Assembly: GCA_036320915.1 (NCBI GenBank)
Contig: JAXBDG010000006.1
Span: 434,001-498,000 of the forward strand
Reading direction: 5' to 3'
Length of the DNA: 64,000 nucleotides
From: Linnemannia elongata
Taxonomy: Eukaryota > Mortierellomycota > Mortierellomycetes > Mortierellales > Mortierellaceae
A model generated the notes under the pieces. The model was not told the DNA's origin. It saw only the letters and a list, made by a program, of their open reading frames with translations, and ran no database searches. The position numbers and the translations under genes are program-made. Shown here one piece after another: positions 2 to 20,263 of the stretch. How positions within the stretch are numbered: the stretch's first letter is position 1; each line of letters starts with the position of its first letter.

Positions 2-112
2 CCTCCGATCGCCACAACAGATATGATTACCCCCAAAGCAACTAACAAGAAGTACACCAAAGGAGGAAGACCCATCAATAAATCTACTTCTAGAACCAGC
101 TGGAAAAAATAA
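2..112 (+). CDS. C-terminal end of LINE ORF1 (partial)
   Basis: An open frame from the window edge ends at a TAA at 110-112. The 36 visible residues are basic and rich in Lys, Thr and Ser, and end in Trp-Lys-Lys. That fits the nucleic-acid-binding tail of a LINE ORF1 (Gag-like) protein, but no diagnostic domain is visible. The stop shares its last A with the ATG of ORF2 (TAATG). This arrangement is known from some non-LTR retrotransposons that translate ORF2 by termination and reinitiation. The assignment rests on position and the overlap. Confidence 0.55.
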   Translation, partial: PPIATTDMITPKATNKKYTKGGRPINKSTSRTSWKK

Positions 113-3100
113 TGCGGATCGTGAGCCTGAATGTACGAGGATTGCGAAAGCAACACCTTCAGAACAACAATGCAACCGGTCCATCTAACTTTTTCACCTG
201 GCTTCGGAAAACGGATTTTGATATAATGGCACTTCAGGAAATCAACCTACCGTCAACACCAACCACCACTGAACAAACCAACTACAATCAATATCTCAAC
301 ACTCATAGCTCTGTCTGGTCTTCTCACTGTGCACTTCTTCTTCGCGACCCTGACCTTTCTTTCTCTAACACCTCTTATGCAGAAGAAGGAAGAATTATTG
401 TTACTACTGTCTCCTCCTCATCCACATCCTTCACGGCCACCTTCTGCATTATGTATGCCCCAGCCAACAAGACGGCACGACGCCAATTTATGATGAACTG
501 CCTGTCACTTCCCTTCTTTCTCTCCCCTCCTCCAAAGGCCTTTCTTTTAGGCGACCTCAACTTCAAACACCACACTCATCCCCGTCCCCACCCCCTGTTT
601 CAGGACTGGGTTGACACTCATCTTGTAGACTGCATCACTCCACCCCACACTGATCCCAAACCCACTCACACCCATACAGTAAACAAAGCCCGCCATACCA
701 TTGATTACATTTTCTCCTCTATCCATTTCCTCTCACAGGTATCTAAATCTGAGCAACTCTGTACATCTCCCTTCTCGGACCACGATATGCTGGTACTGAC
801 ACTCTCCCTCACCTCCGCCCCTGTGACAGGTCGAGGGATATGGCGAATGAATACCCGGCTCCTCAACAGTGACTTCCTCAAAGAACTCACCGAACACTTG
901 ACCGCATTCTCCTCACCACATCCTCACCAAAGCAACACTCAACACTGGGACAGAGTCAAGACCGAAATCAAACGATTCTGCATCTCTGCCTCCATCAAAA
1001 GGAAACAGGATCAACAATCCGCCATAAGAGAACTCAACATACAACGTCAAAACAAACTAGCCCAGCTCTCCCTTGCTTCCGGTGCAACAAAGGACACCAT
1101 CATACTGGAACTGGAAGCCCTGGAATCAACTCTCCAACATCACACATCGGAAGACCTGGATGCCTATGCCCTTCGTTCGGGAACTTTGTGGCGTGAACAA
1201 GGGGAAGGCAACACCTCCTACTTCTTCCGAGCGATCTCCCAACGCAACAAAAAACGACTTGTACCTCACTTGCTCAACCCTGCCACCAACGCCCTAACAA
1301 CCACAACCGAAGAACGACTAAACGTAGCAACAGACTTTTACTCACAACTTTACTCCTGTGACCCCTCAGACCAGGATGCGACAAACCAACTACTGAACGC
1401 TATCCCCCCTCAGGCAATCCTCTCCGATCAGGATAGCATTCGTCTCCAAAGGGACGTCACACCAGAAGAGATAGACGACGTAGTGAGCAGATCACCACTC
1501 AGCAAAGCCCCAGGCAAGGATGGGTTGCCTTTCGAGCTTTACCGACACATCCTTCTCATACCCTGGATCAAGGAACTATTCACCACAATCATCAACGACG
1601 CGCTGACTCACGCCACCTTCCCCGCATCCTGGCAGGAGACAGTGATGATCCTCCTCTTCAAAAAAGGAGACGCAACAAAACTGGCTAACTGGAGACCCCT
1701 CTCACTCATCAACTCGGACGCCAAACTATTCACCAAAATCCTTACCCTACGCATTCAGCCACACATGTCCAAGCTAACAGGAGCATACCAAACCGGGTTC
1801 ACGGCAGGACGACACATAGCAGACAATGGCTTAGTGCTTACCACCCTTCGGGAGTACTGTAACACAAGGAAGACAAAGCATGTTGGCATACTACTGGACC
1901 AGGAAAAAGCATACGACCGTGTGCATCCCATTTATCTACGACAAGTCTTGAGACGTTTTGGATTTCCATCAAGTGTCATCGAGTCGGTCGTTCAACTCTT
2001 CTTCTCCACGAAGATTGCCCTCAACATCAACGGCTTCGTATCAGATACCTTCCCACAATCAAGAGGACTCCGCCAGGGTGATCCGCTATCTCCCCTTCTC
2101 TTCAACCTCGCCTTTGAGCCGTTGCTTGCCTTCATTCAACAATCCCCAACCATCCACGGTATCGAAATCCCTGGTCGCACGGAATCCATCAAACTAGGCG
2201 CCTATGCAGACGACCTCATGACCATTATATCCACCACAGCAGAATGGATAGCATTGGAGAACTGTCTACAGACCTATGGCCGCGCATCCAACGCCAAAGT
2301 CAACCTGTCCAAAACCGTAGCCTTCCCAATGGCCCCCTCCTATTCCATTGAATTGCAAACTCGACTTGAACAGCTGCACATTCAATGGCATGACCATAAC
2401 TCCGCTGACGCCTTAATTTACCTGGGATTCCCGATCCCCTTCAACCATAACCAGGAACAAGGATTCTGGGACAAGATGCTGAAGAAAATACAGTCAACCA
2501 TAGCCATTCACTCTTCCCGCTCCCTCTCCGTTCTAGGCCGAGCGACCATTGTCAATTCCCTCATCCTCTCCAGACTATGGCACCTTTCTTGGGTAGTCAA
2601 ACCCCCGCCAGATTTTCTGCGGAAAGTGAAGTCCGCCGTATCTAGCTTCGTGTGCTCCTTCAAACCAAGACCATCATGGGAGGTGATCACTACCCCGAGA
2701 GATAAAGGAGGTCTGGGAGTTATTGATCCAGCCATTCAAGGTCAAGTGTTTCAACTCAAACACATACGCAACGCCCTCGCCACCAATATCTCTTGGGGTA
2801 AGGATATCATTCTCGACATCATTCGATGGAAAACCAAAACCTCTCACCGCCTTGCATTCCTTCTAGCACCTGTGGAGGGACAATACAGATCACTGCTGGC
2901 GGGATTCCCCAGCCTGCAACGCTTGGTGACTGTAGCATCCTCCATTCCTTCCCTTAAAGCACTGGCCCTTGCCGACACTCTGCCCGACTCCGCAACTCTC
3001 GCCTCCTCACCGATCGAATGGTGGTTTGAGACGACGGACACCACCATCAAGGCCCTCAGACTCCGAGTGGAAGACCTTTTCCAGTTCTCCACAAACGACA

Positions 3101-3891
3101 ATGGGCTCCTCCGACTTGTCAGACGAACGAACCTAACCCCCAAGCTCCGCCTTATCCAAGTGGAGCTAGGAATCCAAGCCTATCAGGAACGTCGGTTGAT
3201 GCGTCACAACATGCAACAAGCACTCTCGAACCCCCCCAAGCTCACACAGGAGGACACCCTGGCACAACGCATCCTCTCCTCAGTTTTGCTACCAAGCACC
3301 AAGAATCCCATTACTCTCGAATTGGCTACAACTAAACATCTTCGAACCTTTCTGAGACAAGACACACCGCCAGACCCAAACTCATCAACCCATCCAGAGG
3401 CGGGTTCCTTAAAACAATGGCGCCGATTCTGGAGAGCCAAGATACCACACCGGGCTAGGACCATGTGGTGGAGGTTTAAAAGGGATTGGCTCCCCTGTGG
3501 AACTCTACGTCACAAGATCTGGAAGCAGGAACCTCACTGCAGCATGGCCGGTTGTCGAGAGCGACACGAGGACAAGACACATCACATCTTTCAGTGCACC
3601 CCCAAGTACATTGCGTGGCAAACAATCCTTAAGCAACACACCTCCAAAACAGTATGGTCGGATGATGATCTTCACAAGGTCTTGTCATTCCAACCACCAT
3701 CCTTTGATATCAAACCCCAATTCAACATCACTATCCCACAACTACTGGCCTGTTGCCTTATTGGAATCTCAACAGCCAACACTGTTCTCTTTTTACACCA
3801 ACACACACAATCAAGCAGTGATATCATCCACACCATTCTACAAGAAATCCAGAAAACCATAGCGCAGAATAACTTTCTAAAGGCTTTTTAA
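112..3891 (+). CDS. LINE ORF2: APE-type endonuclease and reverse transcriptase
   Basis: The 1259-residue polyprotein nicks target DNA and reverse-transcribes the element RNA. The apurinic-type endonuclease fills roughly residues 1-230, opening with SLNVRGLR, with the catalytic Glu in LQEINL, GDLNF near 147 and SDHD near 223. The reverse transcriptase covers about 450-800, with RPLSLINSDAKLFTKIL, DQEKAYDRV near 597, GLRQGDPLSPLLFNLAFEPL and the YADD active-site box near 698. A Cys-Cys-His-Cys cluster near 1143-1161 matches the C-terminal zinc knuckle common in LINEs. No frameshift or internal stop is present and all visible catalytic motifs are kept, so the protein may be functional. No RNase H domain was recognised between the reverse transcriptase and the zinc knuckle. 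The start is the ATG in the TAATG overlap. Confidence 0.95.
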   Translation: MRIVSLNVRGLRKQHLQNNNATGPSNFFTWLRKTDFDIMALQEINLPSTPTTTEQTNYNQYLNTHSSVWSSHCALLLRDPDLSFSNTSYAEEGRIIVTTVSSSSTSFTATFCIMYAPANKTARRQFMMNCLSLPFFLSPPPKAFLLGDLNFKHHTHPRPHPLFQDWVDTHLVDCITPPHTDPKPTHTHTVNKARHTIDYIFSSIHFLSQVSKSEQLCTSPFSDHDMLVLTLSLTSAPVTGRGIWRMNTRLLNSDFLKELTEHLTAFSSPHPHQSNTQHWDRVKTEIKRFCISASIKRKQDQQSAIRELNIQRQNKLAQLSLASGATKDTIILELEALESTLQHHTSEDLDAYALRSGTLWREQGEGNTSYFFRAISQRNKKRLVPHLLNPATNALTTTTEERLNVATDFYSQLYSCDPSDQDATNQLLNAIPPQAILSDQDSIRLQRDVTPEEIDDVVSRSPLSKAPGKDGLPFELYRHILLIPWIKELFTTIINDALTHATFPASWQETVMILLFKKGDATKLANWRPLSLINSDAKLFTKILTLRIQPHMSKLTGAYQTGFTAGRHIADNGLVLTTLREYCNTRKTKHVGILLDQEKAYDRVHPIYLRQVLRRFGFPSSVIESVVQLFFSTKIALNINGFVSDTFPQSRGLRQGDPLSPLLFNLAFEPLLAFIQQSPTIHGIEIPGRTESIKLGAYADDLMTIISTTAEWIALENCLQTYGRASNAKVNLSKTVAFPMAPSYSIELQTRLEQLHIQWHDHNSADALIYLGFPIPFNHNQEQGFWDKMLKKIQSTIAIHSSRSLSVLGRATIVNSLILSRLWHLSWVVKPPPDFLRKVKSAVSSFVCSFKPRPSWEVITTPRDKGGLGVIDPAIQGQVFQLKHIRNALATNISWGKDIILDIIRWKTKTSHRLAFLLAPVEGQYRSLLAGFPSLQRLVTVASSIPSLKALALADTLPDSATLASSPIEWWFETTDTTIKALRLRVEDLFQFSTNDNGLLRLVRRTNLTPKLRLIQVELGIQAYQERRLMRHNMQQALSNPPKLTQEDTLAQRILSSVLLPSTKNPITLELATTKHLRTFLRQDTPPDPNSSTHPEAGSLKQWRRFWRAKIPHRARTMWWRFKRDWLPCGTLRHKIWKQEPHCSMAGCRERHEDKTHHIFQCTPKYIAWQTILKQHTSKTVWSDDDLHKVLSFQPPSFDIKPQFNITIPQLLACCLIGISTANTVLFLHQHTQSSSDIIHTILQEIQKTIAQNNFLKAF

Positions 3892-4026
3892 GCCACAATA
3901 AAATCGTACTGAAAAAAAAAAAAAAAAAAAAAAAAATCTTTCGAACAAAAATCCACCTGGTGTAAGGCACTCCTCTTGTTGTGGCTTACAAGAGATCCTG
4001 GGATCAAACCCCAGTAAAATTAGTCC

Positions 4027-4454: not shown

Positions 4455-5036
4455 AATCGAACATATCTAGAGAACAATGGGATTAAATCTCAGCAGATCG
4501 TAGCAACAAGGCTACTCTACTGCTTACAATACCCCGTTCAATTAAAGTCGTCTGCAATGGATTTATCCTTGGCAATATTTGAAATTAACATTAGTGGGAA
4601 TGTCACAAAGCCTTTTCACTCTCCAACATAACCCCACGTTCGTATGATTCTGGACCGTAGGTCTATTCGTATTCAACTAAAAATGGCTAAGGCGGTAATC
4701 ATCGCGTTCTAGCACGGGTTCTGACTTAGAGGCGTTCAACCATAACCCAACGGATGATAGGTTTGGGCCATTGCCTGCTCAGGCAGGCCCAAATACCAAT
4801 TATCCGAATGAACGGTTCCTCTCGTACTAAGTTCAATTACTATTGCAACAACATTTCATCAGTAGGGTAAAACTAACCTGTCTCACGACAGTATAAACCA
4901 TGTTCAGGTTCCCTATTAGTAAGTTAACAACCCAACGCTTACTGAAGTCCGCTTCAGTACGATAGGAAGAACCGACATAGAAGGATAAAAAAGCAACGTT
5001 GCTAAGAACGCTTGACTGCTACAAGCCAGTTTACGT
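4455..5036 (-). pseudogene. 28S rRNA 3'-terminal fragment, decayed
   Basis: Read on the minus strand, this stretch carries recognisable conserved large-subunit rRNA sequence in order. It contains the segment with TCAAGCGTT, the GACAGGTTAGTTTTACCCTA block (4862-4881), AGTACGAGAGGAACC beside the sarcin-ricin region (4816-4830), the GAACGCCTCTAAGTCAGAA stretch and the natural 3' end near 4460, followed by a T-run. Point changes and small indels show it is no longer functional, and everything upstream of about 5036 is missing. It is a fragment of a rDNA unit in a dispersed location. Confidence 0.88.
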
Positions 5037-5183
5037 AGAGTTAATTGTCATAGGAAATGAAGTCTACGAGGGTCCCCTTGAAGATGCAGATGTGATTGGA
5101 TGTGACGTTTCGTATATTGAAGTGATCGAAAAGGAATGATATACGACAAAGAACTATATATGCGTGAAAGGGGACTGAGCCAC

Positions 5184-5471
5184 CTACCCCAGGTTCTTAA
5201 TAATATCCTTGGACAGATCGGTAAACGACTTGATACTATCTGCCTGCGACGTTCTGTACATATGATACTCAGCTAAAGCTGATTGATAGTCTGCCAACAA
5301 AGCTGGGTCGTCGGGATGTTCTTTAAGAGCTTTAACTGCCTCATCCAATTTAGATTTCAGAGTATTTACGCCGATGTCGAAACTTGTGTGTTGTTCAGAC
5401 GTCCAACCCCCCGAAGCTGCTGGGCCAATGGCAGGAGTGGGGACATCTTGCGGTTCGCGTTGCTCACTCAT
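5184..5471 (-). CDS. type III secretion needle-like protein (SctF/PrgI/MxiH family)
   Basis: The 95-residue product matches the small helical-hairpin subunit that polymerises into the needle of bacterial type III secretion systems. What is seen: a variable Pro/Ala-rich N-terminus (1-22), Trp23, a first helix from Phe31 to Leu49, the P-D-D-P turn at 53-56, then a second helix carrying LLADYQSALAEY (58-69), Tyr72-Arg73, Gln76, Lys81, Asp85 and a terminal IIKN (90-93). Length, turn position and the Tyr-Arg...Gln spacing agree with the family. The ATG at 5471 is chosen because the family is 80-95 residues long; the frame also extends six codons upstream. No Shine-Dalgarno sequence precedes it. 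The leader is pyrimidine-rich on the sense strand, as in the fungal genes here, and no other secretion gene is nearby. The gene is intact, lies among fungal rDNA scraps and retroelements, and has no known role in a fungus. Transfer from a bacterium is inferred; assembly chimerism is the main alternative. Confidence 0.8.
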   Translation of the reverse strand: MSEQREPQDVPTPAIGPAASGGWTSEQHTSFDIGVNTLKSKLDEAVKALKEHPDDPALLADYQSALAEYHMYRTSQADSIKSFTDLSKDIIKNLG

Positions 5472-5520
5472 TATGACTTGAGGATACAAATGGAGGTCTT
5501 GGAGGAAAGGCTGAACGGGT

Positions 5521-5620
5521 GTTGAGTAGGGTTCCTAGTCTTGAGGAAGAGTGCTGAAGGAAATAATACTGTTGAGTAGGGCTCGTAGGCTTGAAGAAAG
5601 ATGTTGCAGGGAGCATGTTG
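5521..5620 (-). repeat. two tandem 50-bp repeats in the leader of the needle-like gene
   Basis: Two imperfect direct copies of a unit beginning GTTGAGTAGG (plus strand) start at 5521 and 5571, exactly 50 bp apart. They lie 50-150 bp upstream of the needle-like ATG. On the sense strand they form a CT-rich leader like those of nearby fungal genes. They show local duplication and need not be regulatory. Confidence 0.6.
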
Positions 5621-6340
5621 GAGAAAGGAAAGATGTTGAAGGAAGGTTAAAATATTCAGCAGCTCTGACCCACTCCTCCGAGTCAACTCTCCTCCGAGGC
5701 AAAAAAAAAAACTGGTGCCCAGCATAAGAGTTGTTAACGATTCTTACCCCTTAATCTACCATCTTGACGTTGTTCCAAAACTCCAGTGCCCTTTACATAA
5801 TTCAACCTCACCATAGTTAGCCAAATGTAAATGATACACTACTGTAGTAGAAATAGGGCAGCATGGTGGTTCTTTTGCTCCTTGCCTTTTCCAAAGACAC
5901 CTCGAGGAGCACCTAACCAACGTTAGTTGACTTGATTATTTTCAGTGTAACCGCGCATGAAGTTTATGGCGCCCTGTTCAAGGAATCCAGAAGCAATAAC
6001 TGAGAGTGCAACGATCGCTCTATCCTCCATATCGAACGCACTGATTCTGTAACAACACGGACAATCTTGAACGCCATCTGTCTTTATAAAAGGCCCTTAA
6101 ATTGTGCTCGGAGAAAAAAAAAGGAAAAGTAGAGAGAGGAGATGTAGTCTCGAATCCAGCCCATCACTACGTGGGTTGAATCTTATCCAACATCTTCACG
6201 AAGTGAAGGTCTGGGTTTCTTGGATAGGTATTGTTACAAAAAGATGTGGTGGCTAGGCAGTGGCGGCGAGGCTTTAGATTAGCAGTCATTTCCTAGCAGA
6301 CTAGTATTAGTAGTGCGCCGAGCTCTTTCGTCTGCTCCTT
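5621..6340. other. no gene recognised
   Basis: No supportable coding region, RNA gene or clear transposon domain was seen between the needle-like gene and the direct repeats at 6341. The stretch is AT-rich, with short A-runs near 5700 and 6115 and scattered stops in all frames. An A/T-rich AATATTTTAA near 5645 (minus strand) could serve as a weak core promoter for the needle-like gene. Confidence 0.5.
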
Positions 6341-6478
6341 GTCCTTTTACACAAGAGCAGAATTGACAAGAGTTTCGTTGGCGCACTGCAGGTATTTAAC
6401 CCTTCCCCATCGATATTATTAATACAAAGTCCTTTTACACAAGAGCAGAATTGACAAGAGTCTCGTTGGCGCCTGCAG
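6341..6478 (+). repeat. ~45-bp near-identical direct repeat pair
   Basis: The 45-bp string beginning GTCCTTTTACACAAGAGCAG occurs at 6341 and again at 6429, with one mismatch, and both copies run into a GCGC...CTGCAG end. The 88-bp spacing and high identity suggest a recent local duplication or remnants of a small repeated element. No ORF lies between the copies. Confidence 0.75.
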
Positions 6479-6602
6479 CTTGTATTCTTTAGGACCCGTT
6501 AACGCTATACTACGACAACCCTTCCCCCCCCCCCCCTGTACCAATTGAGGACTTCACAGCGGTCCTATAACTCTGACCCAGGACCTCTCCCCTGAGTAAC
6601 AG

Positions 6603-6681
6603 TATGGAAGGTTGTTAAGGGTTTGGGTCGCGTCTTCAGAAGACTCTTTTCGATATAGGAAACCCTTAACAACCTTCCATA
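6603..6681. repeat. perfect 22-bp inverted repeat (hairpin)
   Basis: Positions 6603-6624 (TATGGAAGGTTGTTAAGGGTTT) are exactly reverse-complementary to 6660-6681, with a 35-base loop. Within the loop GTCTTC-A-GAAGAC forms a second perfect small palindrome. No coding potential accompanies it. It could be the end structure of a small non-autonomous transposon, a transcribed hairpin or a relic of inverted duplication; the sequence alone does not decide. Confidence 0.7.
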
Positions 6682-8121: not shown

Positions 8122-9331
8122 ATGACCGAAGGAAGAACAGTGAAGGCGGCGCTCTACAAAGGCGTCAACCACTCTGCTCCCCTCCTCAAAGTGACCGATC
8201 TTCCCGCCCCAATCGCTACCAACGGTGATGCAGTCGTCAAGATCCTCGCCTCCCGCGTCGTCAGCTATGCCAAAGATGTCCTCGACGGCACTCGTCCTTT
8301 CCCAAACCTCCTTCCCATGGTCCCTGGAACCGGAGGTGTCGGAATCATCCAGTCTGTCGCCCCCGGTGCCATCCATATCAAACCAGGACAAATGGTCTTT
8401 ATCAATTCCGCGGTCCGATCTCGCGACCACCCCGTCACACCCGAGAGCATGGTTCAAGGTCTGCTTGCATTTGGCAGAAGCAAGGAGCTCCAAAGAGTCT
8501 GGAACAATGGCTCCTGGGCTGAAGAGATGTTAGTCCCCCTCGAGAACTTGACTGTGATCCCCGAGAGTGTTCAAGCCAAGTTTGACCCTGCCGAGTTGAC
8601 CTCCATCAGCAACTATGCTGTCTCATTTGGAGGACTCTACCCCAATCTTCATCCCGGCCAAACGGTGGTCATTACGGGATCGACAGGCGTGTTTGGCTCC
8701 TCTGCTGTGGCGGTCGCGCTAGCTTTGGGAGCGCGATGTGTCATTGCCTCAGGAAGAAATAAGAAGCAGCTCGATGAGTTTGTGACACTCTATGGACCGC
8801 GAGTGGTCTCTGTGGTGACGACGGGCGATGTAGCCAAGGATACCGCGGCGTTTGTGAAGGCTGCTGGAGAAGGGTTTGACATTGATGTCTCGTTCGATAT
8901 CCTGCCGCCCCAGGCTGGGTTTGGTGCTGTGAAGTCGTCTATTCTTGCATTGAGGGCTGGTGGTACTGCTCTCCTCATGGGAGGTGTCAACTCTTCCGTC
9001 GAGGTAACTGCTGTGTCTTCTCATTCTGATACCCCTTTACCCTGTCACTGTCATCCTTGACTTGCGAAAAAAAATTACTTACACATCCTCTACTGTCAAT
9101 GCAAAATAGATCCCATACTCTGTGATTATGAACAAGGGTCTCACGATCAAGGGCGTCTTTATGAGCGATCGCGCAGGACCCACCACCATTATCGGCTTAG
9201 CCGAAGCCGGTCTTCTTGACCTCCACCACCGGCAGGAGCCCAAGATCTTCAAGCTAGACGAGATCAATGACGCCGTCGAGTGGTCAGCCAACCACTCCAG
9301 TGCCTTTGATGCCACCATTGTTATTCCATAA
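8122..9331 (+). CDS. zinc-independent MDR-family oxidoreductase
   Basis: Two exons (8122-9003 and 9110-9331) are joined in phase 0 by a 106-bp GT-AG intron and encode 367 residues. The product is a medium-chain dehydrogenase/reductase. It has a GroES-like N-terminal half to about residue 150, then a Rossmann NAD(P)-binding segment with ITGSTGVFGSSA near 182-193. The catalytic-zinc motif of classical alcohol dehydrogenases is replaced by PGTGGVG, and the structural-zinc cysteines are absent. It therefore probably belongs among the non-zinc quinone-oxidoreductase-like or fungal alcohol-dehydrogenase-like members; the substrate is unknown. The 3' end is only 67 bp from a transposon insertion, so its polyadenylation site may lie inside the element. 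Confidence 0.85.
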
Positions 9332-18982: not shown

Positions 18983-20263
18983 CGTATCTGAGTCGACAGT
19001 CCATCCCCGGTCGCTACACTCTCCTTTTTCCCACATCATTTTCACTTTTTTCATCTTGCATTCAGTACGTTTCGTTTTTTTCACCCGTCTCTTTCATTTC
19101 TCCACTCATCTCTTCCACTGTCATTTTTGCACTTCCCTCTTGCTTATCCTTCCTTGCTTTCAATTTTTGCATATAATTCATCTCTCTTGATTTCCTTCTA
19201 CATACACCTCAACTGGCTGCATCATAAACATTGCAGTATTGTTCAGTGCAACATCATATTCTCCAATAAACGCTCACCACATTCGCATTTCATAAAGATC
19301 ACACTCTTCTGGTGTCTTTTTGTTCGTCTGTTTGTTTGTTATTTGAAAGATAAGAAAAAAAAGAGAGAGTAAACCGCTCAGAATGTGCGACCGCCCTCAT
19401 CATAGCCACCTTGAAGGGTGACTAGACAAGATCATCAATAAGCAGGCACCCGACTCTTCAAGAGAAGAGTAAACAGGTGTGCTTCGCTTCCCTTTACGGG
19501 CAGCGCACTTCAACTCATCGTCGAGGGTAAACCGTGTGTCTATGTTGGGAAACAAAGACTGGAAATGTACTAGACAGAAATCCTGTAAGTACAGTCGATA
19601 GAGAACAAAACCCTTCGCGGTTGCCAATTCAATTTATAGTCTGTGGTGAGAAGGGTGTGACTTTGGAAATTGAGGAAGAGGAAGGGATGAGGTATTGGAA
19701 AAAGAAGGGGTTCATGGGAGATGGGAAGAAAGGAATTCAAGCGCCGCTTTTTGTGGTTTGGGTGGTCGATTTTTGAAGGTTTTTGTCTCTTCTTGATGTC
19801 CTCTCCCCTAGTATAGACTGCTTTTATGCTTGCAGGTTCCTCGTTATAGGTGTTGCAAGTTTTGGCAGTGTTTGTCCAGCTGAAGGATTGCCAATGGTAC
19901 CAAGGGAGTTGAATAGTCAAGGGAGCGCGAAGAAATCAATCCTGAGTCGTGCTGGTTACACGGGATTGGTGGCGCACTCCTTCCTTCCCACCCTCGGTCC
20001 ATTCTTTCGCTCAGGCACAAAACAAAGGCATGAATGATGAAAAGAAAACACAAATACGCAGTCACGCTTACTTTTTTTTTTTTTTTTTTTCTGTGCTTAC
20101 AGAACGCTCGCAGTCGAGTCGGTCTTTTCTGCTGACTTGCCCTTGACTGACAAAGCAACCGTCCGCAGGCAAATTCGACCACTTCCTTCGTTTCCGTCTT
20201 GCCTCGTCTTCCCCTCCTCCCCCCTTCGTTGTACATCCCCATCCTTCATATACATCTCACACA
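18983..20263. other. intergenic; no secure gene
   Basis: CT-rich sequence follows the previous gene. Around 19390-19620 the minus strand has a weak coding-like block, but its implied intron would be only 28 bases, so no gene is called. A poly(T) tract lies at about 20070-20092, and the final 100 bp form the CT-rich leader of the GTPase gene. Confidence 0.4.

Follow-up and report, generated by a model that had tools for sequence, protein, structure and literature searches.

The window, a 64,000-nucleotide stretch of contig JAXBDG010000006.1 of the fungus Linnemannia elongata, contains a complete open reading frame (ORF) of 95 codons at 5184-5471 on the reverse strand whose product belongs to the SctF/PrgI/MxiH family of type III secretion needle subunits. 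The reading that we favour, with a probability of about 0.82, is that an SctF gene was gained horizontally from a Gram-negative bacterium and is now found alone in the fungal nuclear genome, where it is off secretion duty. The donor would have been a Gram-negative and plausibly endohyphal bacterium, the gene an SctF closest to the PrgI/MxiH type of Salmonella pathogenicity island 1 (SPI-1), and the recipient the nuclear genome of Linnemannia or a close member of the Mortierellaceae, in which the transferred gene would now lie alone in a repeat-rich stretch of a chromosome. If expressed, its product may be present in the fungal cell as a helical hairpin, either free or associated with itself. 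The observations described below show the family, the position in the assembly, the single copy and the intact frame, whereas the fold is predicted; the transfer with its direction, age and donor, together with the expression and fate of the gene, is what we infer from them. If true, the presence of an intact and solitary needle subunit in a fungal chromosome would document that the fungus once met a bacterium equipped with such a machine. It would also offer a testable case of the fate of a polymerising protein without its machine, in a group of fungi whose interactions with endobacteria can be studied experimentally.

Family membership and predicted fold

The initial annotation, which was made from the letters of the DNA, had proposed a complete needle-family ORF, and profile searches bear this out. 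The frame is intact and stays open over 116 codons. PF09392 (T3SS_needle_F), with which the annotation had suggested searching, is the sole Pfam family on the ORF with an E-value of 1.1e-13 and a score of 51.6 bits against a cut-off of 29.4, and the alignment places ORF residues 29-93 onto positions 6-70 of the 71 in the profile. The NCBIfam SctF model TIGR02105 is also passed (2.9e-11, 43.6 against a cut-off of 41.7), and the score for the narrower NCBIfam model NF011854 lies below its cut-off (65.5 against 96). Among sequences in the PDB, PrgI is the best match (1.8e-15, ORF residues 21-94), followed by MxiH and a Burkholderia needle protein and, weakly, by YscF (3.1e-5). The P-x-x-P turn, the DPALLADYQ segment and the IIKN ending that had been noticed initially are all present in the translation, and the turn, P53-D-D-P56, conforms to the motif P-(S/D)-(D/N)-P described for needle subunits (PMC3605151; this and the other papers given by PMC number are cited from excerpts of their text). 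Judged from sequence, the match to the needle family is far above chance.

A needle hairpin fold is predicted for the ORF product. The AlphaFold model built with 60 relatives, on which it depends, has helices at residues 24-51 and 56-94 with a predicted local distance difference test score (pLDDT) of 78.9 and a predicted template modelling score (pTM) of 0.56. The model built from the ORF sequence alone, which is independent of those relatives, has helices at 25-51 and 56-93 (pLDDT 68.9, pTM 0.41). When the model with relatives was compared to the PDB using Foldseek, 438 matches were obtained at E <= 10, the best at 7.2e-5, and all 21 matches at E <= 0.001 are needle chains or chains of needle-holding complexes. 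The profile matches, the predicted fold and the turn motif together place the ORF product in the needle family.

Compared to PrgI/SctF proteins of the SPI-1 (Inv/Mxi-Spa) type, the ORF is alike in length, predicted hairpin and P-(S/D)-(D/N)-P turn, and is approximately 40-47% identical over residues 21-94. It differs from them in its location on a fungal contig, in the lack of an operon, in changes at 9 of 25 bacterial-invariant columns and in the 21 residues that precede the conserved Gly, compared to 6 in PrgI. Helical hairpins are common, which together with an ORF base composition near that of the local DNA would favour a native fungal hairpin that resembles needles by chance, but such a coincidence is extremely improbable given that the 40-47% identity covers 73-74 residues, is colinear across nearly the whole profile and is accompanied by the passing of two curated cut-offs (PF09392 and TIGR02105).

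Genomic setting and candidate donors

The needle ORF is located on a fungal contig, where repeats and genes of the fungus flank it. This contig, to which the whole window belongs, is 2.82 Mb long and is one of 32 in an assembly of 51.1 Mb, and sequences repeated in the same genome start 152 bp 3' of the ORF and, on the 5' side, weakly at about 590 bp (a short match from around position 6058) and strongly at about 760 bp. The fungal setting described in the initial annotation is therefore confirmed, but the sequence it regarded as decayed 28S rDNA is one copy of a dispersed repeat of about 575 bp, of which at least 39 other near-full copies with 83-92% identity occur in the genome; the genome repeat search scored 40 of 314 candidates, so that copy counts are lower bounds. 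Most of the listed copies share their two end points to within a few bases. In appearance this element resembles a 28S-derived retroposon.

The gene had also been described as a lone one, and this agrees with the assembly-wide searches, in which all candidates were scored and which returned one match to PF09392 and one to the ORF protein, corresponding to a single copy. No match to SctV/FlhA (PF00771) was found in the assembly, the same search being positive in 4 of 14 control genomes; a translocator search (PF04888) is uninformative as no control genome matched. Two Chromobacterium type III secretion loci, cut into open stretches of 60 residues or more, were furthermore searched against the window with the filter and the composition correction turned off. 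The needle ORF (7.8e-19) was the sole credible match among the best 20, the next independent match (7.5e-6) being located elsewhere in the window, and no trace of PrgH/PrgJ-type operon neighbours was seen beside the needle ORF in the window. Of the two features by which a type III system would be recognised, SctV in the genome and the operon neighbours of the needle gene, neither was found in the assembly and the window, respectively. The assembly thus gives no indication of a type III system, and the needle gene is detached from any secretion machine detectable.

These observations also bear on an assembly chimera or bacterial contamination as the source of the ORF. Endobacteria do occur in this host group of fungi (PMC12306442), which lends this explanation some credit, but it is improbable considering that the contig of 2.8 Mb carries same-genome repeats on both sides of the ORF, that no adjoining bacterial coding sequence was found in the window and no SctV match in the assembly, and that no bacterial identity exceeds 48% among the matches listed.

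A profile search of proteins returned 221 matches, the best 120 of which have 36-48% identity over 67-89% of the ORF, and all named proteins among these 120 are bacterial with the exception of the ORF itself. Matches from the profile and tblastn searches include Providencia, Salmonella, Chromobacterium and Burkholderia. On plasmids 190 records matched, the best of the 40 listed being from Providencia (46.6% over residues 22-94), and the single matching phage record is filed as Salmonella. Scanning of genome contigs yielded four loci from 233 pattern matches. Within the genomes of the order and class of a Chromobacterium only that Chromobacterium matched the ORF (1/399 and 1/369, respectively), and none of four genomes of one further family did. 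The ORF alone, searched against 5.8 billion proteins under a strict word filter, retrieved only itself (3 candidates), a filter that also dropped Providencia needles of 47% identity and by which moderately diverged fungal orthologues may therefore be missed. A weak needle-like match was seen on a contig labelled Tessaracoccus lapidicaptus, an actinobacterium (locus L021, 6001-6102; 47% over residues 44-77); its E-value of 2e-5 refers to the candidate stretches only, and it may reflect chance or contamination of the record.

An endobacterial donor is plausible, with indirect support from the host group and from published reports. The Mycoavidus of Mortierella elongata AG77 has a type III system that was likened to those of Salmonella and Yersinia, although strain B1-EB of Mycoavidus contains no more than a component with partial resemblance to the Burkholderia rhizoxinica hrp system (PMC5877345). 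The type III system of Glomeribacter is expressed (PMC5282467). Burkholderiales are a main source of transferred genes in the Mortierellomycota, whose nucleotide-binding oligomerisation domain (NOD)-like receptors, about 45-50% identical to those of Mycoavidus, are reported to come from it or at least to be shared with it (PMC11291939). The needle case resembles these reported transfers in host group, plausible donor group and level of identity, and differs in that the proteins there are multi-domain receptors, whereas here the protein is a structural component of secretion machinery. Transfer from an endosymbiont as initially envisaged stands with regard to the needle family, the fungal setting and the lone gene, but not with regard to the donor, since the bacterial relatives among the matches listed are only 36-48% identical and therefore single out no donor lineage. 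No needle gene in a fungus is named in the literature searched on horizontal gene transfer and type III secretion in Mortierella and Mycoavidus (titles and starts of abstracts), and in the excerpts of three papers on gene transfer into fungi (PMC11708051, PMC12306442, PMC11291939) the transferred genes include no structural component of a secretion machine; the word Mortierella does not appear in the main text of PMC11708051.

Conservation, expression signals and possible fates of the gene

The ORF was compared with 60 of the 119 listed bacterial needles, using those alignment columns that are filled in at least 45 of the 60. The majority residue is kept in 16/25 invariant, 6/14 nearly invariant and 10/40 variable columns, and the residue in the ORF has a BLOSUM score of 0 or higher in 23 of the 25 invariant ones. 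C-terminal conservation of the 60 relatives is inflated because all were found through shared words. In PrgI numbering, which equals the ORF residue minus 15, the charged residues reported to form the raised lumen groove are Lys66, Lys69, Asp70 and Arg80 (PMC6155069). Two of the four are kept in the ORF (K81 and D85); Lys69 is replaced by T84 and Arg80 by G95, both at positions that are invariant across the 60 bacterial relatives. Because no export apparatus was found and part of the charged lumen face is changed, the product most likely forms no secretion conduit now. A mutational scan of PrgI defined 21 'immutable' sites (PMC11351046, Table 1), at which the ORF is identical to the Providencia needle in 12 and to a Chromobacterium one in 11. 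The changes relative to Providencia comprise Tyr8 to Trp, Ser39 to Asp, Ser62 to Ala, Val65 to Ile and Ile71 to Leu, and four less conservative ones (Leu9 to Thr, Val12 to Gln, Lys69 to Thr and Asp72 to Ser).

Neutral evolution was simulated in 2000 runs from each of two references (Providencia and Chromobacterium) to about the same identity. The stopping test was applied at part of the mutation steps only, and the averages include runs in which stops arose; due to this partial test the runs slightly overshoot the divergence, which favours stops and losses. Replacements in the ORF are milder than neutral, with only 6/2000 and 0/2000 runs being as mild, and therefore the path from the bacterial ancestor was probably constrained somewhere, either in the bacterium or in the fungus.

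The signals that might relate to expression are few. As noted initially there is no Shine-Dalgarno sequence, AGGAGG being matched at no more than 2/6 positions between -20 and -4. The 200 nt ahead of the ATG are 65% C+T, in the upper 6% of the window; for comparison, the start of the fungal alcohol dehydrogenase gene described below has 72-76% pyrimidine over 50-150 nt. This leader is a possible, weakly indicated fungal 5' region. Between 5032 and 6228 a sigma-70 scan found two promoter-like sites, both on the opposite strand (shuffle mean 1.5), and a terminator scan found one terminator-like site (shuffle mean 0.7), with no excess in either case. The codons of the ORF are only slightly nearer to fungal usage than a GC-matched random choice (P 0.09), and its codon choice fits a foreign origin, low expression or drift alike.

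Several of the results weigh against the gain of a bacterial needle gene as set out above. In a tree built from the ORF and 60 of the 119 other listed proteins, the fungal branch is very long and its placement unsure. No close donor was found, at least among the matches listed, which lie in the 36-48% identity range. The frame is still open in 5.75% and 10.6% of the neutral runs, and the number of 'immutable' sites kept does not exceed what is expected from neutral drift (P 0.12 and 0.14). Finally, the GC content at third codon positions is 0.45 in the ORF, near the local background, compared to 0.62 in 1829 codons of supported fungal exons, a value as low as that of the ORF being reached by 0 of 5000 samples from fungal codon usage.

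Horizontal gain from a bacterium can be followed by two fates, which are rated nearly alike. The first, which falls a little short of even odds, is that the transferred gene is a passenger without fungal function that drifts among retroelements, as suggested by its repeat-rich surroundings, its single copy, codon usage unlike that of conserved fungal genes, the changed lumen residues and the failure of the ORF alone to retrieve any other protein under the strict filter. The intact 95-codon frame and the mild replacements argue against it, and the divergence must then fall mostly in the donor lineage. The second, which is possible if tentative, is that the hairpin is expressed by the fungus and kept under constraint there, in the role of a filament-former, a signalling protein or a decoy for an endobacterial needle. 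The frame, the predicted hairpin with its PDDP turn and the mildness of the replacements would be expected of such a protein, as would the pyrimidine-rich leader with A at -3. However, the constraint may date from the bacterium, the leader lies in the upper 6-10% of windows and is a weak signal, codon usage is unlike that of conserved fungal genes, and an intact frame is no proof of selection in the fungus because the neutral path stays open in 6-11% of runs. It is unlikely that the hairpin, as a bacterial injectisome needle subunit domesticated by a eukaryote and freed from export, now builds self-assembling filaments in the fungal cell or conveys an immune or symbiotic signal to endobacteria with related needles.

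Neighbouring genes and other features of the window

Eight of the 20 larger window ORFs submitted to a Pfam scan were matched and 12 were without a match. The matched ones are a long interspersed nuclear element (LINE), a PAC2 protein, a MYST acetyltransferase, a velvet protein, a HECT protein, two WW proteins and one RRM protein. The ORF of the LINE is followed by a poly(A) run at approximately 3913-3937. In addition to the Linnemannia zychae protein given in the table, the alcohol dehydrogenase exon matches proteins of Podila verticillata (88%), Mortierella sp. AD031 (84%) and L. gamsii and L. schmuckeri (82-83%). Judged by this single protein, the host is most likely a Linnemannia and in any case close to that genus within the Mortierellaceae.

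Table 1. Features of the needle-gene region and its surroundings, in window coordinates
Feature	Position	Strand	Basis
LINE, uninterrupted 1259-codon endonuclease and reverse transcriptase ORF	112..3891	+	Pfam
Dispersed 28S rRNA-derived repeat (3' part of the rRNA), immediately 3' of the needle gene	4457..5031	-	Rfam large subunit rRNA (LSU) model and genome search
Stretch bearing the needle ORF, with no second copy among the matches listed and no PrgH/PrgJ trace	5032..6057	.	Repeat and operon-partner searches
SctF/PrgI/MxiH needle-subunit-family ORF, 95 amino acids, intact, ATG to TAG	5184..5471	-	Profile, PDB and fold matches
Coding region of the predicted hairpin (helices 24-51 and 56-94, turn P53-D-D-P56)	5190..5402	-	AlphaFold
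Pyrimidine-rich leader, A at -3, no Shine-Dalgarno sequence	5472..5671	-	Composition scan; weak evidence
Sequence repeated in the same genome, 5' side of the needle gene	6229..6500	.	Genome repeat search, strong matches
Zinc-binding alcohol dehydrogenase exon, fungal	8122..9060	+	91% identity to Linnemannia zychae protein

Two further features were observed in the window. A perfect inverted repeat with arms of 22 nt and a spacer of 35 nt is located at 6603-6681, and a gene for U3 small nucleolar RNA lies on the reverse strand at 19373-19598 (88.9 bits).
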